From positions 837,501 through 901,500 of the forward strand of contig NZ_JALJAZ010000001.1 of assembly GCF_022899245.1 (NCBI RefSeq): a stretch of 64,000 nucleotides of DNA, written 5' to 3'. This document shows, piece by piece, positions 25,796 to 35,361 of this stretch. Under the pieces are notes generated by a model. That model saw only the letters and a list, made by a program, of their open reading frames with translations. It ran no database searches and was not told the DNA's origin. Each line of letters opens with the position of its first letter. Within the stretch, counting starts at the first letter, position 1. A program made the position numbers and the translations under genes. This DNA is from Falsirhodobacter halotolerans. GTDB lineage: Bacteria > Pseudomonadota > Alphaproteobacteria > Rhodobacterales > Rhodobacteraceae.

Positions 25796-26209
25796 TTACT
25801 TTCCCAAGTCTCGCGATCCCTCATCCAGATGATGGCGCACGGGGTTCGGAGAGTTCTGCCGATAAAGGCATATGCGCTCCTCCTGCTTGCGCACATAGAA
25901 CGAGGCCGTCTCGCCCGTCAGATCGACCAGCCGGTGCAGTTCGGGCCGGATCTTTTCGCCCAGATCGAAGCGCCGCCGGAACAACGCGCCCAAGCGCCAG
26001 ACATTCGCGCCGAGCGCGTATCGCTGGTCGGAATCCCGTGTCACGAAACTGAACAGGATCAGGGAATTGAGCAGTCGGGGAAGGGAGCTTTTCGAGATCC
26101 CCGTCTCCGCCGCCAATTCAGTAAGGCTGAACGAACTGCGCTCTTCTGAGAAGGCATCGAGGATCGACAACGCCTTCTCGACCGCTTCGACACGCTGTTC
26201 TGAGGACAT
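25796..26209 (-). pseudogene. IclR-family regulator, truncated after the start of the effector domain
   Basis: From the ATG at 26209 the frame gives 137 residues: a full IclR winged helix (about 5-75; VEAVEKALSILDAFSEE and LTELAAETGISKSSLPRLLN) and the first third of the effector-binding domain (ETASFYVRKQEERICLYRQN). It stops after HHLDEGSRDLGK. Family members are about 250 residues, so more than 100 are missing, and I see no continuation in another frame before urtE. The DNA-binding half is intact and divergent from tctC, so a short repressor-like protein might still be made. Alternatively it is a pseudogene and tctC is deregulated. Confidence 0.75.
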
Positions 26210-26216
26210 TGGGGCT

Positions 26217-26233
26217 GTTCCATTGAGTGAAAC
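26217..26233. promoter_or_regulatory. Candidate IclR-type operator
   Basis: GTTCCATTGAGTGAAAC has near-palindromic ends (GTTCC against GAAAC) and resembles the TTCC-N5-GGAA pattern of IclR/KdgR-type sites. It lies just upstream of the truncated iclR start in the divergent tctC control region. Confidence 0.4.
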
Positions 26234-26244
26234 CAGGGTTCCGC

Positions 26245-26277
26245 ACTGTGGACACGTCCTGCGGGATTGTCCACTGT
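26245..26277. promoter_or_regulatory. Long inverted repeat in the iclR-tctC control region
   Basis: ACTGTGGACA (26245-26254) and TGTCCACTGT (26268-26277) pair in nine of ten positions around a 13-base spacer. The half-site centres are 23 bases apart, about two helical turns, as for a dimer or tetramer binding site. It lies about 40 bases before the tctC start. Confidence 0.5.
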
Positions 26278-26317
26278 TGCGGCAGACGGCGGGGAGGCCG
26301 TTACAAGGAGGATGATC

Positions 26318-27280
26318 ATGAACACATCGCGCGCCCTGGGTGCATTTGCGGCACTCGTCCTGTCGGCGGGTTCGTCGACCGCCCAAGATTACCCTGACCG
26401 GACAATCAGCATGGTGGTTGCCTACAGTGCGGGCGGCGGCACTGACATCGCCGCTCGGACACTCGTTCCCTACATCGATAAATATCTGCCCGGCGACCAG
26501 ACCATTGCGGTCATCAACAAGCCGGGTGCCGCAGGTGAACTGGGTTTCAGCGACATCGCCAAGGCGGCCCCGGACGGTTACACTATCGGCTTCATCAACA
26601 CACCGACAATCCTTACCATTCCGATCCAGCGCGACACGTCTTTCGCATTTGAGCAGATCAAACCCATCGCCAACGTTGTATTTGATGCCGGGTCCCTTGT
26701 GGCGCTGCCTGATAATGATTTTGGTGATCTGGCAGGCCTGATCGCCGCGGCCAAAAAGGCTCCGGGCACCATTACCTATGGCACCACGGGCATCGGGTCA
26801 GATGATCACTTGTCAATACTGGCCCTTGAACGGGAGGCGGGCATCACGCTTCGGCATGTGCCGTTCAGTGGCTCGTCGGAAATCCGTGCGGCGGTCCTGG
26901 GCGGTCACATCGCGCTCGGCTCCATGAATATTGGCGAAGTGATCAACAGCGTGAACGAGGGGGAAATCGTGACTTTCGGCCAGATGGCGGCCCAGAGATG
27001 GGAAGGGGCGCCCGACGTGCCGACCTTCCGCGAACAGGGTATCGACATCGTATCGGGCGCCTATCGCGGTGTGGGTGCGCCCGCAGACCTCGATCCTGCC
27101 ATTATCGATATTCTGTCCGAGGCCGTGGGCAGAGCTGTGGCCGATGAGGACTTCCGCGCCGCCGCTGCAAAACAGGCGTTGCCGCTTGATTACCAAGCTT
27201 CGGATGAATTCACGGCCACTTTGATCGAACTGCAAGGACTTTACCAAACGCTCTGGGACGAAAACCCTTGGGTCGATTGA
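26318..27280 (+). CDS. tctC: Tripartite tricarboxylate transporter, substrate-binding protein TctC
   Basis: A Bug/TctC-family periplasmic binding protein of about 320 residues. The signal peptide is MNTSRALGAFAALVLSAGSS followed by TAQ. Family motifs are YPDRTISMVVAYSAGGGTDI (about 24), INKPGAAGELGFSDIAKAAP and TYGTTGIGSDDHLSILALE. AAGGAGG at 26305 sits 6 bases before this ATG, which fits better than the ATG at 26312 that touches it. It feeds the TctBA permease encoded next. The ligand is probably a tri- or dicarboxylate. Confidence 0.93.
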   Translation: MNTSRALGAFAALVLSAGSSTAQDYPDRTISMVVAYSAGGGTDIAARTLVPYIDKYLPGDQTIAVINKPGAAGELGFSDIAKAAPDGYTIGFINTPTILTIPIQRDTSFAFEQIKPIANVVFDAGSLVALPDNDFGDLAGLIAAAKKAPGTITYGTTGIGSDDHLSILALEREAGITLRHVPFSGSSEIRAAVLGGHIALGSMNIGEVINSVNEGEIVTFGQMAAQRWEGAPDVPTFREQGIDIVSGAYRGVGAPADLDPAIIDILSEAVGRAVADEDFRAAAAKQALPLDYQASDEFTATLIELQGLYQTLWDENPWVD

Positions 27281-27281
27281 T

Positions 27282-27785
27282 ATGTCATCGCGTGACGACT
27301 TCGCCGTGCCCTCCCGCTGGCTGATCGCGGCAGAATTTGGTGCCGCCATCTTATTGGCCGCGCTTTTCGCCACGCTGGCGTGGGTGGGCAGCGGGTATGG
27401 TGGGACCGCCGCCTTCATGCCTTTGGCGGTATCGACACTCGGCACCCTCGCTTCTCTGGCATGGGCCATAGGGTTGTTGCGCAAATACCCGCGCAATGAG
27501 GGGGGGACGACAATCTCGCTGGCGTCCTTGCGCAGGCTTGGCACCCTGGTGGTGCTTTTCGTGACGTTTGTGGCCGCTATCCCGCATTGCGGCTTTTTGA
27601 CCGCGACTTTCGTCTTCGTTGGGGTCACGCCCATCCTGATGGGCCTGCGCCCGGCGTGGCACGCGGTGATCGCGGCGGCCTGCCTTTCAGGGCTGCTCTG
27701 GCTCGTATTCGCCGTCCTTCTCAAAAGCCCTCTGCCCGCGGATATCATTTTCGATCGCCAAGGAGTCTTCGCGTGGATATTCTGA
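27282..27785 (+). CDS. tctB: Tripartite tricarboxylate transporter, small membrane subunit TctB
   Basis: A 167-residue protein with four predicted membrane helices (around 15-35, 45-65, 80-105 and 115-150), typical of the weakly conserved TctB subunit. It starts one base after the tctC stop and its 3' end overlaps tctA by 13 bases. Assignment rests mainly on size, hydrophobicity and its place between TctC and TctA. Confidence 0.85.
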   Translation: MSSRDDFAVPSRWLIAAEFGAAILLAALFATLAWVGSGYGGTAAFMPLAVSTLGTLASLAWAIGLLRKYPRNEGGTTISLASLRRLGTLVVLFVTFVAAIPHCGFLTATFVFVGVTPILMGLRPAWHAVIAAACLSGLLWLVFAVLLKSPLPADIIFDRQGVFAWIF

Positions 27786-29284
27786 CACACCTGGCGGACG
27801 GCTTCGCCAATGTCCTGACGCCGACCGTTGTATTGGCGATGTTCGGCGGCACCATAATGGGGGTGCTGATTGGTGCCTTGCCGGGGTTGTCGGCAACGAT
27901 GGGTATCGCAGTGCTCATCCCGTTCACCTTTGGAATGCAACCCTTGATTGCACTTGGTCTGGTGGCGGGTATCTACAACGGCGCGATGTACGGCGGATCG
28001 ATCCCCGCGATCCTGCTACGTATTCCCGGAACGCCCGCAGGTATCGCCACGGTCTTTGACGGTTACCCGATGACCCGGCAGGGCCGCGCTCGGCTTGCCC
28101 TGCGGGTGTCACTTTATTCCTCTGCCTTCGGATCGTTCGTCAGCGCGCTCTGCCTGATCCTGCTGTCGCCTCCCCTTGCGGCATTGGCCCTGAAGTTCGG
28201 TCCGGCGCAGTTCTTCTGGCTCGCGATCTTCGGCATGCTCTGCATTACGTCGGTGTTGGGGGGATCACTTTCAAAGGGTATGATCGCGACCTGCGCAGGG
28301 CTGCTGATGGGGCTTGTCGGGATCGATCAGATCACCGGCGCCGAACGCTATACTTTTGGCGCCCCTTACATGCTGTCGGGGTTTTCCATCATTGTCGTGC
28401 TGACTGGTCTTTATGCCATCCCGCCCGCGCTTGAGCTGGTCGAAAAGGCACTTCGTGTTTCGGGCAACGATCTTGTGACCGGCAAGCAGGCTGACGACGC
28501 CTTTTTCATGCGTTCGTTGCTGCCGGTCTGGCTGCGGTCGTCAGTGATCGGCGTGATTGTCGGTATCATGCCCGGTGCAGGTGGCAACATCGCAGCGGTC
28601 ATCTCTTGGAATGAGGCTCGCCGCCGCGCGAAAGAGGGTGACCGCTATGGCGATGGCGAACCCAAGGGCATAGCGGCGGCCGAATGCGCCAACAACGCCG
28701 ATACGGCGGCGACGTTGATACCCGCGCTCACGCTGGGTGTGCCGGGGTCTGCCGTGGCGGCGGTGATAATGGGGGTGCTTTTGGTGCATGGCCTGCGGCC
28801 AGGGCCTGCTCTGTTTCGCGAAACCGCCGAAATCACATATGGATTCATGATCGCGATGGGTATCACGGCCCTGATGATGATCCCGGTCGGCCTGTTCGGA
28901 TCTCGGCTCTTCATTAACGCTTTACGTCTTCCGCCGCTGTTGCTCGCTCCGGGCATCGTGGTGCTGACGTCGATCGGTGTCTACACTGTGGGCAACAGCA
29001 TTCTTGATGTTTGGACCATGCTCATCGTCGGATTGGTCGGCTATGCAATGGAAAAGCTTCAAATCCCCACCGCGCCCGCCGTTCTGGCAGTCATTCTGGG
29101 TCCGATGGCGGAATCGGAATTGCGGCGAGCGCTGCTTATCAGCGGCGACGATCCCGCGATCTTCTTCACGGGTGTTGTGAATTGGGTCTTCATCTTGCTG
29201 ATCGCGGTGATGCTGGCGCTTCCGTTCCTCAACCGAAGAGGCAAACGCCACAACATGATTGAAAATGAGAAGGTGGAAACATGA
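27773..29284 (+). CDS. tctA: Tripartite tricarboxylate transporter, large permease TctA
   Basis: A membrane protein of about 503 residues with around 11-12 helices. Conserved TctA segments are GVLIGALPGLSATMGIAVLI (about 24), IYNGAMYGGSIPAILLRIPG (about 65), GIMPGAGGNIAAVISWNEA (about 264) and TLIPALTLGVPGSAVAAV. The GTG start at 27773 is chosen for the AAGGAG 7 bases upstream and because it gives the normal family N-terminus. The stop overlaps the aldehyde dehydrogenase start (ATGA). Confidence 0.93.
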   Translation: MDILTHLADGFANVLTPTVVLAMFGGTIMGVLIGALPGLSATMGIAVLIPFTFGMQPLIALGLVAGIYNGAMYGGSIPAILLRIPGTPAGIATVFDGYPMTRQGRARLALRVSLYSSAFGSFVSALCLILLSPPLAALALKFGPAQFFWLAIFGMLCITSVLGGSLSKGMIATCAGLLMGLVGIDQITGAERYTFGAPYMLSGFSIIVVLTGLYAIPPALELVEKALRVSGNDLVTGKQADDAFFMRSLLPVWLRSSVIGVIVGIMPGAGGNIAAVISWNEARRRAKEGDRYGDGEPKGIAAAECANNADTAATLIPALTLGVPGSAVAAVIMGVLLVHGLRPGPALFRETAEITYGFMIAMGITALMMIPVGLFGSRLFINALRLPPLLLAPGIVVLTSIGVYTVGNSILDVWTMLIVGLVGYAMEKLQIPTAPAVLAVILGPMAESELRRALLISGDDPAIFFTGVVNWVFILLIAVMLALPFLNRRGKRHNMIENEKVET

Positions 29285-30759
29285 TCAAATACTCCAACTA
29301 TATCGATGGCGGCTGGGTCGAGCCAGCGTCGGGGCGTTGGATGGATGCGGTCGAGCCGTTCTCTGGGAAGACGTGGGCCGAGGTCCCACGCTCGGACGCG
29401 ACCGACGCCGATCGGGCGGTGCGCGCGGCCCATGCCGCAATGGACAATCCCGACTGGGTGGGGCTGACCCCAACCGCGCGGGGCGCGCTGCTGCGCCGCT
29501 TTGCCGACTATATCCAAAGCAACTCCGACCGTCTGGTCGAGGTTGAACAGCGCGACAACGGCAAGCTGGTGGCCGAGGTCCGGGGCCAGGTCGCCAATAT
29601 GGCGCAGTGGCTTAATTACTATTCCGGTCTGTGCGACAAGGTTGGCGGCCACGTGGTTCCGATCAACAAGCCGGGCGTCTTCAATTATGTGAAATACGAA
29701 CCCATCGGCGTCGTCGTGGCGATCACCGCGTGGAACTCGCCCCTGTCGCTGACCGCATGGAAGCTTGCACCAGCGCTGGCGGCGGGGAATGCCATCGTCG
29801 TCAAGCCGTCCGAGTTCGCTTCGGCTTCGGTGCTGGAACTGGCGCGTCTTGCCGATGAAGCCGGGATGCCGAAGGGGGTGATCAACGTGGTGACGGGGAT
29901 GGGCGACGAAGTGGGCGAGGCGCTCGTCTCTCACCCCCTGACCGCCAAGATCGCCTTCACCGGGGGTGAGGCAGGTGGGAGGCACGTCGCCATGGCGGCG
30001 GCTCGTTATTTCAAGCCGGTGACGCTGGAGCTTGGAGGGAAGTCGCCCAATATCATCTTCGATGATTGCGATTTGGACCAGGCCGTCAAGGGGGCCATCG
30101 CAGGCATCTTCGCCGCCGCAGGCCAGACCTGCATGGCCGGCAGCCGGGTGCTTGTCCAGAAAAGCGTTCTGGAACCATTTCTTGAAGCCTTCACCGCCGC
30201 GACCGAGGCAGCCCGGATTGGCGATCCGGCAGATCCGGACACCCAAATCGGGCCGATCTGCACCCGACCCCAATTCGACAAAATCCTTTCGATGATCGCC
30301 ATGGCGCAGGAAGACGGCGCACGCCTGGTAACCGGGGGCGATATCGTGAGCGGGCCCGGTCTGGGTCAGGGACAGTTCATCCGCCCCACGATCCTGACCG
30401 ATGTTACAAACGACATGCGCATCGCGCGACAGGAGGTCTTCGGCCCCGTGGCCAGTGTCATTGCCTTCGACACCGAGGAAGAGGCCTATGCTATCGCCAA
30501 TGATACCGATTATGGTCTTGCCGCCGCCGTCTGGACCCGCGATCTGGCGCGCGCCATGCGGGCCGTCGACCGTATCCGCGCGGGCACCGTGTGGGTGAAC
30601 AATTACCGCACCACCAGTTTCGCAACCCCGTTCGGCGGCTACAAGCAATCGGGCCTGGGGCGTGAGGGCGGGGTGGACGCCTTCAAGGATTATCTGGAGA
30701 CAAAAAGCGTTTGGATCACCCCCGAACCCAACCGTGCCAACCCCTTCGTTCTGGGATAA
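29281..30759 (+). CDS. NAD(P)-dependent aldehyde dehydrogenase
   Basis: The 492-residue ALDH-superfamily enzyme oxidises an aldehyde to an acid. Conserved elements are ITAWNSPLSLTAWKLAPALA (about 148, with the oxyanion Asn), TLELGGKSPNIIFDD (general base Glu, about 249), AAGQTCMAGSRVLV (nucleophile Cys, about 283) and GPVASVIAFDTEEEA. It is translationally coupled to tctA, so it acts on a compound brought in by, or derived from, the TctABC substrate. Confidence 0.92.
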   Translation: MIKYSNYIDGGWVEPASGRWMDAVEPFSGKTWAEVPRSDATDADRAVRAAHAAMDNPDWVGLTPTARGALLRRFADYIQSNSDRLVEVEQRDNGKLVAEVRGQVANMAQWLNYYSGLCDKVGGHVVPINKPGVFNYVKYEPIGVVVAITAWNSPLSLTAWKLAPALAAGNAIVVKPSEFASASVLELARLADEAGMPKGVINVVTGMGDEVGEALVSHPLTAKIAFTGGEAGGRHVAMAAARYFKPVTLELGGKSPNIIFDDCDLDQAVKGAIAGIFAAAGQTCMAGSRVLVQKSVLEPFLEAFTAATEAARIGDPADPDTQIGPICTRPQFDKILSMIAMAQEDGARLVTGGDIVSGPGLGQGQFIRPTILTDVTNDMRIARQEVFGPVASVIAFDTEEEAYAIANDTDYGLAAAVWTRDLARAMRAVDRIRAGTVWVNNYRTTSFATPFGGYKQSGLGREGGVDAFKDYLETKSVWITPEPNRANPFVLG

Positions 30760-30763
30760 GTCG

Positions 30764-31882
30764 ATGAAAATTCCTGAATATTCCCGAGCGGCGGTGCTGC
30801 GCCGATACAGTGCCCCTTTGAAGATCGAGAACGTGCCCATTCCGCAAGTGATTGAACCGGGGGCCATCCTTGTGAAAACCGATTGCTGCACCATCTGCGG
30901 CACCGACGTTCATCTTTCTAACGGTGGCCTGGCGCGACCGGTCGAACTGCCGGTAATCGTCGGCCACGAAATGACCGGCTCGATCGTGGCGTTCGGGTCG
31001 GGGGCCGAACGCGACAGCGTCGGACAGGATCTGCGCATTGGCGACCGCATCGTCTGGACCCGGACCAATTGCGGCCACTGCTACATGTGCACCGTCGCGG
31101 CCAAACCAACTCTCTGCCAAAACGCCCGCGCCTACATGTATGAGACGATGGAACGCGCGCCCTACCTTCTTGGCGGCTTTTCGGACTATGTCTATGTTCT
31201 GCCGGAATCGGGGCGGGTGAAGGTGCCGGAAAGTGTGGCCAGCCCTCTAGCCAGCATGGCCAGTTGCGCCTTCCGGTCGGTCATTCATGCGGTCGAGGAA
31301 CTTGGCGAGGTCCGGCATACTGATACCGTCGTGGTTCAGGGCACCGGTCCGCTTGGTTTGTTGGCGACGGGCGTGGCCCGGATGTCGGGCGCGCGCCGCG
31401 TGATTGCGATCGGCGCCCCGGATGGCCGCCTTGATCTGGCGCGGGATTTCGGGGCAGACGACGTGCTGTCGGTCGAAAGGACGTCGGCCGAGGAACGACG
31501 TGCCTTCGTGCTGGACGCCACCGGTGGACGAGGCGCCGACGTGGTGATGGAATTTGCAGGTAACCCCCACGCGTTCACGGAAGGTCTGCATCTGGCGCGT
31601 CGCGGCGGCAGCTATCTGCTGGTGGGTCAACTAGGTCAGGGCGAAGTGACGATCAAGCCGTCCACCTTCGTCAACCGCAACCTTCGGGTTTTGGGATCGC
31701 TTGCCGGCGGTGCCAAGGATTACTGGGCGGCGATGGAGTTCATCCGCCGCCACGGAACCGATTTGCCATTTGGGCGTCTGATCTCGAACAGCTATGGTCT
31801 TGACCAAGTCAATGATGCCCTGACTGCCATGAGGAACCAGACCGAGGTCAAACCCGTCATCACCTTCGGGAACATGGCATGA
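30764..31882 (+). CDS. Zinc-binding alcohol dehydrogenase (MDR family)
   Basis: A 372-residue medium-chain dehydrogenase. The catalytic zinc site is indicated by CTICGTDVH (about 40) and VGHEMTGSI (about 66), and the structural zinc site by four Cys in NCGHCYMC and TLCQN (about 101-120). The Rossmann motif is VVVQGTGPLGLLATGVARM (about 188). The ATG at 30764 follows the aldehyde dehydrogenase stop by 4 bases. It presumably makes the aldehyde used by that enzyme, or reduces it. The end overlaps the CoA-transferase start by four bases. Confidence 0.92.
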   Translation: MKIPEYSRAAVLRRYSAPLKIENVPIPQVIEPGAILVKTDCCTICGTDVHLSNGGLARPVELPVIVGHEMTGSIVAFGSGAERDSVGQDLRIGDRIVWTRTNCGHCYMCTVAAKPTLCQNARAYMYETMERAPYLLGGFSDYVYVLPESGRVKVPESVASPLASMASCAFRSVIHAVEELGEVRHTDTVVVQGTGPLGLLATGVARMSGARRVIAIGAPDGRLDLARDFGADDVLSVERTSAEERRAFVLDATGGRGADVVMEFAGNPHAFTEGLHLARRGGSYLLVGQLGQGEVTIKPSTFVNRNLRVLGSLAGGAKDYWAAMEFIRRHGTDLPFGRLISNSYGLDQVNDALTAMRNQTEVKPVITFGNMA

Positions 31883-33063
31883 CCTCGCAAAGCCGATCCG
31901 TCTCCCCCCTTTCGGGCATCCGGGTTCTGGACATGACGAACGTGCTGGCGGGCCCGTTCGCGTGCCAGCAGCTGGCGCATCTGGGGGCCGAGGTCATCAA
32001 GATCGAGATCCCGGGGCGCGGCGACCTTGCCCGTCAGTTGGGCGCATCGCGGGATCTGTCGGCCGATCTGATGGGCGTGTCCTTTCTGGCGCAGAATGCC
32101 GGGAAAGGGTCGGTGGAACTCGATCTGAAGACCGACGAGGGCAAGGCCGATTTTCTGGCCCTGGTCGCAACCTCCGATGTCGTGGTGGAGAATTTCCGCC
32201 CCGGCGTGATGGATCGGCTGGGACTGGGATGGGAGGTGCTGCGCGCCCGCAAGCCCGATCTCGTCTATTGCGCCATTTCGGGCTTCGGTCAGACGGGTCC
32301 ATGGGCGAACCGCCCGGCCTATGACCAGATCATCCAGGGGGCCGCCGGGGTCATGGCCGTCACCGGCACGCCCGAGGTGACCCCGCTGCGCGTCGGCTTT
32401 CCCGTGGCGGACACGATCGGCGGGCTGACCGCCGCCATGTCGATCTGCGCTGCCCTGGCCGATCGTGGCGAGGCGCGGTTCATCGACGTGTCCATGCTGG
32501 AGGCGACGGTGGCGACGATGGGCTGGGCCGTGTCGAACTGGCTGGTGGCGGGGGTGCCGCCGGCGGTGATCGGCAACGAGAACATGACGGCGGCCCCCTC
32601 CGGCGCGTTTCAGACGCGCGACGGGCTTTTGAACATCGCCGCCAACGAACATCGCCAGTGGGAGGCGCTGTGCCGCCATATCGGCTGCGACCATCTGCTG
32701 ACCCATCCCGATTACCGCCAGCGCGAGGATCGCAAGGCCAACCGCGATGCCCTGCGGGGGGAGATCGAGGCGGCGCTGGCCCGCAAATCCGCCCGCGAGT
32801 GGGAGGCGGAGCTGAACCCGATCGGCGTGCCGAGCGGCGCGGTCCTGAAGGTCGAGGAGGTTCTGGCCTCCGAACACCTGTCCCAACGCGGGCTCGTCCA
32901 CGACTTCGGGCCCATGGAGGGGGTCGCGGGGCAACGGCTGTCGCTGGTCGCCTCGCCCGTGACCATCAACGGCCAGCGGCCATGCGTCGCCGCCCCGCCG
33001 CCGCGGCTGGGTCAGGACACCGAACGATACCTGCGCGGGCGGGACAAGGAGAAAACACGATGA
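31879..33063 (+). CDS. CoA-transferase, class III (CaiB/BaiF family)
   Basis: The 394-residue protein opens with PLSGIRVLDMTNVLAGPFAC, typical of family III CoA-transferases. The catalytic Asp is expected in RPAYDQIIQGAAGVMAVTG (about 149). HLGAEVIKIEIPGRGD and LLNIAANEHRQWEALCRHIG are further family segments. It would move CoA from a donor such as succinyl-CoA to a carboxylic acid. Coupling by ATGA to the citryl-CoA-lyase-like gene suggests the acceptor is cleaved next as its CoA thioester. Confidence 0.92.
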   Translation: MTSQSRSVSPLSGIRVLDMTNVLAGPFACQQLAHLGAEVIKIEIPGRGDLARQLGASRDLSADLMGVSFLAQNAGKGSVELDLKTDEGKADFLALVATSDVVVENFRPGVMDRLGLGWEVLRARKPDLVYCAISGFGQTGPWANRPAYDQIIQGAAGVMAVTGTPEVTPLRVGFPVADTIGGLTAAMSICAALADRGEARFIDVSMLEATVATMGWAVSNWLVAGVPPAVIGNENMTAAPSGAFQTRDGLLNIAANEHRQWEALCRHIGCDHLLTHPDYRQREDRKANRDALRGEIEAALARKSAREWEAELNPIGVPSGAVLKVEEVLASEHLSQRGLVHDFGPMEGVAGQRLSLVASPVTINGQRPCVAAPPPRLGQDTERYLRGRDKEKTR

Positions 33064-33848
33064 CCGACCCCTCCGTAGAGGACTGGTGGACGACCTCGAT
33101 CATCCGGATGGAGCCGGGCGTGATCGAGTTCCGCGACCGCCCCATCGAGGATCTGATCGGCACGGTCAGCTTTCCGCAGATGATCTGGCTGATGCTGCGG
33201 GGCGATCTGCCGACCCCCGGTCAGGCCAGACTGCTCGAGGCGGCGCTGGTCGCCTCGGTCGATCACGGGCCGCAGGCCCCGTCGATCGCCATTGCGCGCA
33301 TGGCCGTCACCTGCGGGGTGGGGCTGAACAACGCGATGGCCTCGGCGGTGAACGTGCTGGGGGATGTCCATGGCGGCGCGGGGGAACAATTGGTGGAGCT
33401 GTTCGGCCGGATCGACCGGGCGGGCGGACCCGCGGCAGTGCCGGAGGCGCTGAAGGCCCATCGCGCCGAACACGGCAAGTTCGTTCCGGGGTTCGGGCAC
33501 CGGTTCCACAAGGACGGCGACCCGCGCGCGCCGCGCCTTCTGGGCCTGGTCGACGATCTTGCGGCCCAGGGAGAGATTTCCGGCCGGTTCGCCGCCATCG
33601 CCCGGGCCATCGAGGCCGAGCTTGCGCGAGGAAAACCCCGGGGCGTGCCGATGAACATCGACGGCGCCACGGCGGTGATCTTCGCCGAACTGGGATTTGC
33701 CGCCCCGCTTGCGCGCGGCATCTTCTGCCTGTCCCGCTCGGTCGGCATTCTGGCCCATGCCTGGGAACAGAGCCAGCAGGGTGGCCGCAACAAGGGGCCG
33801 ATGCCGCCAAACTATCTTTGGACCTATGGCGGGGCGCCGGGCGCGTGA
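33060..33848 (+). CDS. Citryl-CoA lyase-like protein (citrate synthase fold)
   Basis: A 262-residue short citrate-synthase-family protein. Active-site elements visible are LGDVHGGAGEQLVELF (first His, about 103), VPGFGHRFHKDGDPRA (second His, about 141) and NIDGATAVIFAELGF (Asp, about 200). The length matches stand-alone citryl-CoA lyases rather than citrate synthases (about 430). With the CoA-transferase it could activate and split citrate or a related tricarboxylate into acetyl-CoA (or analogue) and a keto acid. Its start overlaps the transferase stop. Confidence 0.83.
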   Translation: MTDPSVEDWWTTSIIRMEPGVIEFRDRPIEDLIGTVSFPQMIWLMLRGDLPTPGQARLLEAALVASVDHGPQAPSIAIARMAVTCGVGLNNAMASAVNVLGDVHGGAGEQLVELFGRIDRAGGPAAVPEALKAHRAEHGKFVPGFGHRFHKDGDPRAPRLLGLVDDLAAQGEISGRFAAIARAIEAELARGKPRGVPMNIDGATAVIFAELGFAAPLARGIFCLSRSVGILAHAWEQSQQGGRNKGPMPPNYLWTYGGAPGA

Positions 33849-33855
33849 CGGCCCG

Positions 33856-33955
33856 CTACAGCCGACCCACGATCCTGTCCGCCACACGCAGGGCATTCGC
33901 GATGATGGTCAGCGTCGGGTTCACCGCACCGATCGACGGGAAAAAGCTGGCTGCA
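33856..33955 (-). pseudogene. GMC oxidoreductase, C-terminal remnant
   Basis: On the minus strand the last 30 codons before the stop at 33856 read SFFPSIGAVNPTLTIIANAL then RVADRIVGRL. This is the conserved end of choline-dehydrogenase-type GMC flavoproteins, including the active-site NP pair. Homology is lost upstream of about 33955-33995, close to the insertion sequence starting at 34087. The other 500 or so residues are not in the window. Confidence 0.75.
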
Positions 33956-34165: not shown

Positions 34166-34508
34166 ATGCGGAAACGCAGGAAACCATGACGCGGGCTTCA
34201 AGGCTTGGGTTGCGCTCATGGCCGTGAAGGGCGAGCGCACGGTGTCGAAGCTGGCCGCCGAATACGGCGTGCATCCGACGATGATCCATCAGTGGAAGAA
34301 ATCGCTGCTCGACGGGGCTGCGGATATCTTCGAGCGCGGCGGCAAGAAGCCTGCGACGGAGGTGGATGAAGAGACGGTCCGGTCATTGCATGCCAAGATC
34401 GGGGAGCTGGCTGTCGCCAACGATCCTCCGCAAGGCCTACGCGGCCCCACTGGGGCCACGGTCCTTCCTCCGATGTCACGAAAGCTCAAGCCGTGGACCG
34501 TAAAGTGA
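34166..34508 (+). pseudogene. IS3 OrfA (helix-turn-helix transposase subunit), frameshifted
   Basis: The first codons (ATG at 34166, MRKRR) are put out of frame by one extra A near 34178; correcting it gives NHDAGFKAWVALMAVKGERT, the usual OrfA start. The open part from 34218 contains VSKLAAEYGVHPTMIHQWKK and EETVRSLHAKIGELAVAND. Where relatives read straight into SRKLKPW, about 50 extra bases (about 34425-34475) interrupt the frame; they include a small palindrome GGCCCCACTGGGGCC. Confidence 0.85.
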
Positions 34509-34511
34509 GGC

Positions 34512-35361
34512 GTGGGATGGTCGAACGGAACCATCCTGCGCTGTCGATCGGGGACGCAGTGCCGCCTGCTGTCGATCTCGCGCTCGTCGTTCTACCACGA
34601 GCCTGCGGGCGAGACGGATCAGAACCTCAGCCTGATGCGGCTAATCGACCGACAGTTCCTCGACACGCCGTTCTATGGGGTTCGCCAGATGACCTGGCAC
34701 CTGCAGAACGAGGGGCATCGCGTGAACCAGAAGCGCATCCGGCGGCTGATGCGTGGCAGAGCGCCTGATGCCGATCTATCAGAAGCCCAACACCAGCAAG
34801 CCGAGGAAGGGACACAAGACCTATCCCTATTCGCTGGGCGGACTGCGGGTCCATCGCCCCGGCCAGGTCTGGTGCGCCGATATCACCTGGCTGCCGATGC
34901 GGAGCGGCTTTTTGTATCTGGTTGCCATCATGGACTGGTTCACGCGCAAGGTGCTGGCGTGGCGAATATCGAATACGTTGGAGGCTGACCTTTGCGTCGA
35001 AGCGCTGAACGAGGCCATCCACCGCTTCGGCGCGCCCACGATCATGAACACCGATCAGGGCAACCAGTTCACGTCCTTCGCTTGGGCAGATCGGCTGAAG
35101 CGCGTCGGCACCCGCATCTCGATGGACGGCAAGGGGCGGTGCATCGACAATGCCGTCATCGAGCGCCTGTGGCGATCGCTGTAGTATGAATGCGTCTCCC
35201 TGCATGCTTGGGACACAGGGTCTCAGGCAAAGGCTGCCACCGGAGCTTGGGTCCCCTTCTATAACCATCGCCGGTCACACACTGCCCATGGCGGGCTGCC
35301 CCCCGCCGTGGTCTACTTCAACAGAACCGAAACCGACCGGCAGGCAGAGGCAATCGCTTAA
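34512..35361 (+). pseudogene. IS3 OrfB (DDE integrase-type transposase), frameshifted with internal stop
   Basis: The N-terminal part (SISRSSFYHEPAGETDQN, FYGVRQMTWHLQNEGHRVNQ) shifts frame near 34770. The integrase core follows with VWCADITWLPMRSGFLYLVA (first Asp), IMNTDQGNQFTSFAW (second Asp) and IDNAVIERLWRSL (Glu region). A TAG at 35182-35184 interrupts RSL-stop-YECVS. The rest (FYNHRRSHTAHGG and AVVYFNRTETDRQAEAIA) runs to a TAA at 35359. Confidence 0.9.

Follow-up and report, generated by a model that had tools for sequence, protein, structure and literature searches.

The locus described here raises the question of which substrate is handled by an operon that joins a tripartite tricarboxylate transporter to an aldehyde dehydrogenase (ALDH), a zinc-dependent alcohol dehydrogenase (ADH), a class III coenzyme A (CoA)-transferase and a stand-alone citryl-CoA-lyase-type enzyme. 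The operon lies at positions 26318-33848 of a 64,000-nucleotide stretch of Falsirhodobacter halotolerans DNA (contig NZ_JALJAZ010000001.1, positions 837,501 to 901,500), hereafter called the window. We favor, with a probability of just under one half, an operon for the catabolism of a carboxylated alcohol (or aldehyde) taken up from outside, which would be oxidized to citrate or a citrate analogue, activated by CoA transfer, and cleaved to oxaloacetate plus either acetyl-CoA or a substituted acyl-CoA. The data show the order of the genes, their families, the recurrent pairings, and the residues that align with those of the citrate synthase active site; we infer all the reactions of this pathway, as well as its substrate and its CoA donor. 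The known citryl-CoA lyases come mainly from citrate cleavage in autotrophs, and in the present case heterotrophs have a stand-alone form linked to a CoA-transferase and to importers. If this reading is true, many proteins named citryl-CoA lyase would be catabolic, and genome surveys that use this enzyme as a marker of carbon fixation could be led astray. The combination of transporter, transferase, and lyase makes the substrate a directly testable question.

The operon and its lyase

Domain searches confirmed the gene families proposed in the first-pass annotation, and all seven genes were intact and codirectional on the forward strand. They encode the periplasmic solute receptor TctC (26318-27280; PF03401, 129.9 bits), the small membrane subunit TctB (27282-27785; PF07331, 48.9 bits), and the large permease TctA, with a GTG start (27773-29284; PF01970, 473.7 bits), which together make a complete transporter set; a betaine-aldehyde-dehydrogenase-like ALDH (29281-30759; PF00171, 585 bits) that scored under every NCBIfam equivalog cut-off; the ADH (30764-31882; PF08240/PF00107); the CoA-transferase, of the CaiB/BaiF, Frc-type class (31879-33063; PF02515, 388 bits); and the lyase (33060-33848; PF00285). 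The genes had been described as chained by stop-start overlaps, and this was so at four of the six junctions: TctB and TctA overlap by 13 bp, and 4-bp ATGA overlaps join TctA to ALDH, ADH to the CoA-transferase, and the latter to the lyase. The remaining two junctions, TctC/TctB and ALDH/ADH, are gaps of 1 and 4 bp, respectively. The full operon is collinear with that of Pseudooceanicola sp. HF7 (locus L004); the two are 80% identical in DNA along 8.08 kb and 59-93% identical in their proteins (81% for TctC), and the seven-gene form was seen only in these two places. Given this collinearity, and with the CoA-transferase and lyase genes side by side in 79 of 80 other loci, the arrangement is not due to chance. 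The operon is real; as a catabolic cassette it is ordinary in kind, and what sets it apart is its lyase and the repeated occurrence of this lyase with the CoA-transferase. A scan for terminator-like sites gave 12 sites against 7.9 ± 2.7 in shuffled sequences, none of them at the ADH/CoA-transferase junction, and was uninformative as a whole; a promoter scan performed no better than shuffles.

The lyase scored 427 bits against NF004864, whose curated cut-off is 261, and its closest relative in the Protein Data Bank (PDB), both by sequence and by fold, was the Hydrogenobacter thermophilus citryl-CoA lyase (Ccl, 6hxp). The structural model, with a mean predicted local distance difference test (pLDDT) value of 78.6, showed the citrate synthase fold in its short form, and 6hxp was the top Foldseek match (E 1.3e-14, TM 0.75), followed by the citryl-CoA lyase modules of ATP-citrate lyase and then by citrate synthases. 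The C-terminal part of the model was of low confidence and was left uninterpreted. Residues H69, H104, H147, R156, D201, and R226 were invariant in the alignment, and we take them to be the counterparts of citrate synthase H238, H274, H320, R329, D375, and R401 (pig numbering). At the position of citrate synthase R421', no arginine was aligned, and an invariant R243-x-K245-G-P was found there instead, in which R243 or K245 may be the counterpart. The enzyme is not of the HpcH/HpaI (CitE) fold, and the three HpcH_HpaI genes of the genome are located elsewhere.

These features place the lyase close to known citrate-cleaving systems, with differences from each of them. It shares fold, length, about 33% identity and, as far as these could be placed, the aligned catalytic residues with the H. 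thermophilus Ccl, which belongs to the reductive tricarboxylic acid (TCA) cycle in which citrate is cleaved in two steps, but it is paired with a class III CoA-transferase rather than with citryl-CoA synthetase, and it stands beside import genes in a heterotroph. The fold is also that of the C-terminal citryl-CoA lyase module of ATP-citrate lyase, whereas the operon has no ATP-grasp/succinyl-CoA-synthetase-like part. Like citrate lyase (CitDEF), the operon would use a CoA(-like) transferase followed by a lyase for the same overall cleavage; however, CitE has an unrelated fold and acts on an acyl-carrier protein, and CitD, CitF, CitG, and CitX are absent from the operon. An anabolic role in a reverse TCA cycle was considered and set aside, since neither a citryl-CoA synthetase nor an ATP-citrate lyase gene was seen in the operon.

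The CoA-transferase/lyase pair and the dehydrogenases in other loci

The last two genes were compared with 80 loci of relatives found with the lyase. A class III CoA-transferase adjoins the lyase in all but one of these, and in the exception (L066) it lies a few genes away; in most loci it is 53-65% identical to that of the window. In L008, L056, and L071, the transferase in the same place is only about 31% identical, and therefore the transferase itself can be swapped. The neighbors of the pair include TctC in 54 loci, TctA in 34, an IclR-family regulator in 30, and a TctE-like sensor kinase in 21; the contexts are other TctCBA/TctDE sets, TctC alone, or IclR, usually with neither ALDH nor ADH. 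The neighboring TctA belongs to another subfamily (31-38% identity to that of the window) in all loci but L004, which is also the only one of the 80 with orthologues of the ALDH and ADH. In L034, TRAP transporter genes were read from the sequence near the pair. In addition, the F. halotolerans genome carries a second copy of the pair (block C1:67175-69272, within what we call locus 2). In one respect the first-pass annotation did not hold: the last two genes are not confined to this operon, and they form an autonomous conserved module, found without ALDH and ADH in nearly all relatives and at locus 2. Separate transcription of the two genes had been named as an observation that would speak against a common pathway; as judged by layout, they stand apart from the other genes at locus 2 and not in the window.

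A lyase of the NF004864 type was found in 22 of the 398 sampled genomes of the phylum, in a search made with alignment A1. The pair recurs in many soil and marine bacteria, and it is apparently undescribed: in the open-access literature, we found no paper describing the module, and none that connects citryl-CoA lyase and TctABC to a CoA-transferase of class III. The Cupriavidus metallidurans genome paper states that citryl-CoA synthetase/citryl-CoA lyase enzymes are not encoded (PMC2864759). Contrary to this statement, the megaplasmid of strain CH34 carries a lyase of this NF004864 family (L130, NC_007974.2 718659-719432). As for the transferase, its closest PDB relatives were YfdE, formyl-CoA transferase, and succinate-hydroxymethylglutarate CoA-transferase, and all NCBIfam equivalogs scored far under their cut-offs, giving no named substrate subfamily. 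Its D178 was invariant among 16 relatives (alignment A3) and is presumably the equivalent of the catalytic D169 of Frc, judging by the motif. Tentatively, the pair may represent an undescribed cleavage route for citrate analogues that is free of ATP and of carrier protein. Aerobic Proteobacteria and Actinobacteria would use it as an exchangeable cassette placed behind varied importers and oxidizing enzymes, and a CitE-fold lyase could replace it in operons that are parallel in other respects.

Among eight plasmid records with ALDH orthologues of at least 64% identity (64-69%), six had an NF004864-type lyase 39-74 bp away, five of them from Azospirillum and one from Agrobacterium. On Cupriavidus necator pBB1, the ALDH and the lyase are 10.5 kb apart in one cluster, and on pBB2 the ALDH orthologue was present and the lyase was not detected. 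The ALDH is clustered with a TcuA-like dehydrogenase, AcnA, the CoA-transferase, and the lyase at three loci (L160, L113, and L124) from the distant genera Cupriavidus (C. necator pBB1), Rhodococcus, and Agrobacterium, not listed in matching order, and the same set without a nearby AcnA was found in Azospirillum. The TcuA-like dehydrogenases of these clusters scored 343-354, just below the TcuA cut-off of 369. The ADH is rare, since it was found only in its own genome among 296 genomes of the family, and in 3 of 398 genomes of the phylum, its own included. All five inspected orthologues of at least 48% identity (48-66%), from Skermanella, Ancylobacter, Caballeronia, Rhodococcus, and genome G462, lie near a CoA-transferase; a less similar ADH (44%, genome G488) had no CoA-transferase nearby. 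A plasmid search with TctA gave two distant matches, and the one inspected was not beside other genes of the operon.

In the Skermanella, Ancylobacter, and Caballeronia loci, the partner of the CoA-transferase is a CitE/RipC-type 'CoA ester lyase', and because of these three loci, the lyase step seems to be served by two unrelated folds. The Skermanella and Ancylobacter plasmid operons (L108, L109) have the order ALDH-TRAP-ADH-CoA-transferase-lyase, with an orthologous ADH (56-59% identity) and the same gene logic as in the window, and in Caballeronia (L110) the CoA-transferase and lyase genes are divergent to ALDH-ADH-TRAP. In contrast to the window, these operons have TRAP rather than TctABC, an ALDH only about 40% identical, and a CitE-type lyase, a probable non-homologous replacement. 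The gene set, for which no known pathway had been named at first, is not unique, as there are parallel sets in which the transporter, the ALDH, or the lyase is a different one. Moreover, the lyase is associated with a succinate-semialdehyde-dehydrogenase (SSADH)-like gene and an iron ADH in Roseibium, and with genes resembling a pyrroloquinoline quinone (PQQ)-dependent ADH and an ALDH in Streptomyces. In Ruegeria THAF33, a TctDE-TctCBA-CoA-transferase-lyase set borders genes for acetate kinase and phosphate acetyltransferase, which fits acetyl-CoA as a product. Collectively, with ALDH orthologues beside the lyase and ADH orthologues beside the CoA-transferase, comparative genomics suggested the order that had been proposed from the window, from alcohol to aldehyde, acid, CoA thioester, and retro-Claisen cleavage.

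Candidate substrates and routes

In the route that we favor, TctCBA would take up the acid, and ADH and ALDH would convert a hydroxymethyl arm into a carboxylate, giving citrate or an analogue with a tertiary hydroxyl and a neighboring carboxylate. The CoA-transferase would then charge the newly oxidized arm with CoA, drawn for example from succinyl-CoA, and the lyase would run the citrate synthase reaction in reverse, yielding oxaloacetate together with acetyl-CoA (or a substituted acyl-CoA) and using neither ATP nor an acyl-carrier prosthetic group. Receptors of this transporter type bind many carboxylates. We favor a citrate-type tricarboxylate on the basis of the ALDH orthologues close to the lyase, of the co-clustering with TcuA-like dehydrogenases and aconitase, and of the loci in which the ADH accompanies a CoA-transferase and a CitE-type lyase. 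In the relatives, an aldehyde would be oxidized, a tricarballylate-type acid dehydrogenated and then hydrated by aconitase, and the product loaded with CoA and cleaved as a thioester of the citryl-CoA type; this would make one coherent path, which the window would enter at the citrate level, via an alcohol. The early suggestion of a tricarboxylate, perhaps a citrate analogue, was supported as to the citrate type. SMP-30/gluconolactonase-like genes were also observed near the pair in L112 (from the annotation) and in L006 and L034 (read from the sequence), a hint that the substrate may occur as a lactone.

Several points weigh against this route. No TcuA was found in the F. halotolerans genome and its aconitase lies away from the operon, so that the tricarballylate-type contexts, and the likeness to tricarballylate utilization, apply to the window only by analogy. 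We know of no natural alcohol precursor of citrate. Besides, an aerobe has the TCA cycle for the oxidation of citrate itself and could do without such a route, which suggests an analogue. We found no biochemistry for NF004864 proteins, and the name of this family appears to be a transferred annotation; according to the alignment at the R421' position, one carboxylate contact of the lyase may differ. A break in the G+C content at third codon positions (GC3) at the ADH/CoA-transferase border indicates different recent histories of the operon halves. Finally, some neighbors of the pair hint at citramalate: AtuA (DUF1446) with a partner of about 100 residues lies downstream of it in L005, L033, and L038, with TctCBA in between in L005 and L038, and in Diaphorobacter the pair is beside genes resembling a gentisate pathway. 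Substituted gentisates yield citramalate.

These neighbors bring in another route, in which the pair would activate and split (R)- or (S)-citramalate into acetyl-CoA and pyruvate, with ADH and ALDH producing citramalate from 2,4-dihydroxy-2-methylbutanoate. It would resemble itaconate/citramalate degradation by Ict/Ich/Ccl (RipABC), to which the operon is akin in its predicted use of a CoA-transferase and then a C-C lyase to form acetyl-CoA, but RipC has the HpcH/CitE fold, and the operon has a citrate-synthase-fold lyase and no hydratase. In agreement with citramalate, a DUF1446 gene and a 105-residue neighbor (L084 8934-10618) lie in the Escherichia coli O157 island for glutamate mutase, methylaspartate ammonia-lyase, and mesaconase, and the fate of citramalate there was called unclear in the paper reporting the DUF1446 gene of this island (PMC4682846). 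The CoA-transferase is also weakly similar to succinyl-CoA:mesaconate CoA-transferase. On the other side, R156, the R329-type arginine that contacts the second oxaloacetate carboxylate, does not vary, and the co-clustered TcuA-like and aconitase genes point to tricarboxylates. To our knowledge, no citrate-synthase-fold enzyme uses pyruvate. We consider this route unlikely, although it has to be kept in view.

The similarity of the transferase to succinate-hydroxymethylglutarate CoA-transferases, together with the genes for a 3-oxoacid CoA-transferase and an acetyl-CoA acetyltransferase that were read from the sequence next to locus 2, would fit the degradation of mevalonate through mevaldate, 3-hydroxy-3-methylglutarate, and its CoA ester (HMG-CoA) to acetoacetate and acetyl-CoA. 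Such a neighborhood was not noticed among the loci listed, R226, the R401-type arginine for the alpha-carboxylate, does not vary, and the parallel ADH operons have a CitE-type lyase. The CitE-type fold requires an alpha-keto acid product. We regard mevalonate degradation as very improbable.

The second locus and the recent history of the operon

Positions 31854-33951 of the window differ from locus 2 (G000:C1:66590-69272; L090 11343-14273) by three mismatches in 2098 bp (99.86% identity), all within the first 214 bp. The shared block also contains the 3'-terminal part of a gene for a GMC oxidoreductase, a gene that is intact only at locus 2 (L090 14178-15758); in the window, it is a reverse-strand fragment (33849-33951), followed by a broken IS3-type transposase remnant split over several frames (34218-35184). 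Read in order, locus 2 has an intact IclR gene followed by the upstream region that both loci share; next come six codons from the start of TctC, roughly 60 bp of other DNA, ~25 bp from the end of ADH, and the transferase gene, and the scar reads in frame as a 34-codon leader. As the start of TctC and the end of ADH are retained, locus 2 derives from a full operon, having lost TctCBA-ALDH-ADH by deletion. An assembly duplication was set aside, given that the flanks and the ADH/TctC scar differ. In the window, GC3 is 0.67-0.77 from TctC to ADH and 0.85-0.86 in the last two genes, with a sharp step from 0.71 in ADH to 0.86 in the CoA-transferase; no such step was seen in L004. We read the window operon as a recent mosaic formed by recombination between two related loci. 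The pair in the window was probably overwritten by, or copied from, locus 2 in recent times, a direction that we infer from the GMC fragment.

The GC3 step, and the near identity of the pair block to a second locus that lacks the other genes, could also mean that two unrelated modules stand side by side, with ALDH and ADH acting on another substrate imported by TctCBA and the pair having arrived independently. Against this stand the collinearity of L004, the TctC and ADH remnants at locus 2, which argue for an origin from a full operon, and the ALDH and ADH orthologues that adjoin the lyase or a CoA-transferase elsewhere. An independent arrival is, in our judgement, unlikely.

Upstream of the operon, a reverse-strand gene encodes a truncated IclR-family regulator of 137 residues (25799-26209; HTH_IclR PF09339), which kept the DNA-binding half and lost the effector domain; it is 98% identical to the intact locus-2 protein over 133 residues. 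The top score of the truncated protein, far below the cut-off, was to BhcR, a glyoxylate-responsive regulator, and a glyoxylate/hydroxypyruvate reductase gene lies near one lyase. Both would fit an oxidation of 2,4-dihydroxybutyrate to malate, which would be cleaved as malyl-CoA to glyoxylate and acetyl-CoA. Nevertheless, a route of this kind is not needed for malate, the lyase keeps most of its carboxylate contacts, and the TcuA/aconitase contexts speak against malate; this was the least probable of the routes considered. The divergent regulatory region between the regulator and TctC (26210-26317) contains the palindromic half-sites CTGTGGAC ... TGTCCA, which are kept in the window, locus 2, and L004 though the spacer has diverged, and their conservation makes this region a probable IclR operator. 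With these half-sites conserved upstream of TctC, our guess is that the intact IclR of locus 2 regulates both loci, acting on the window in trans.

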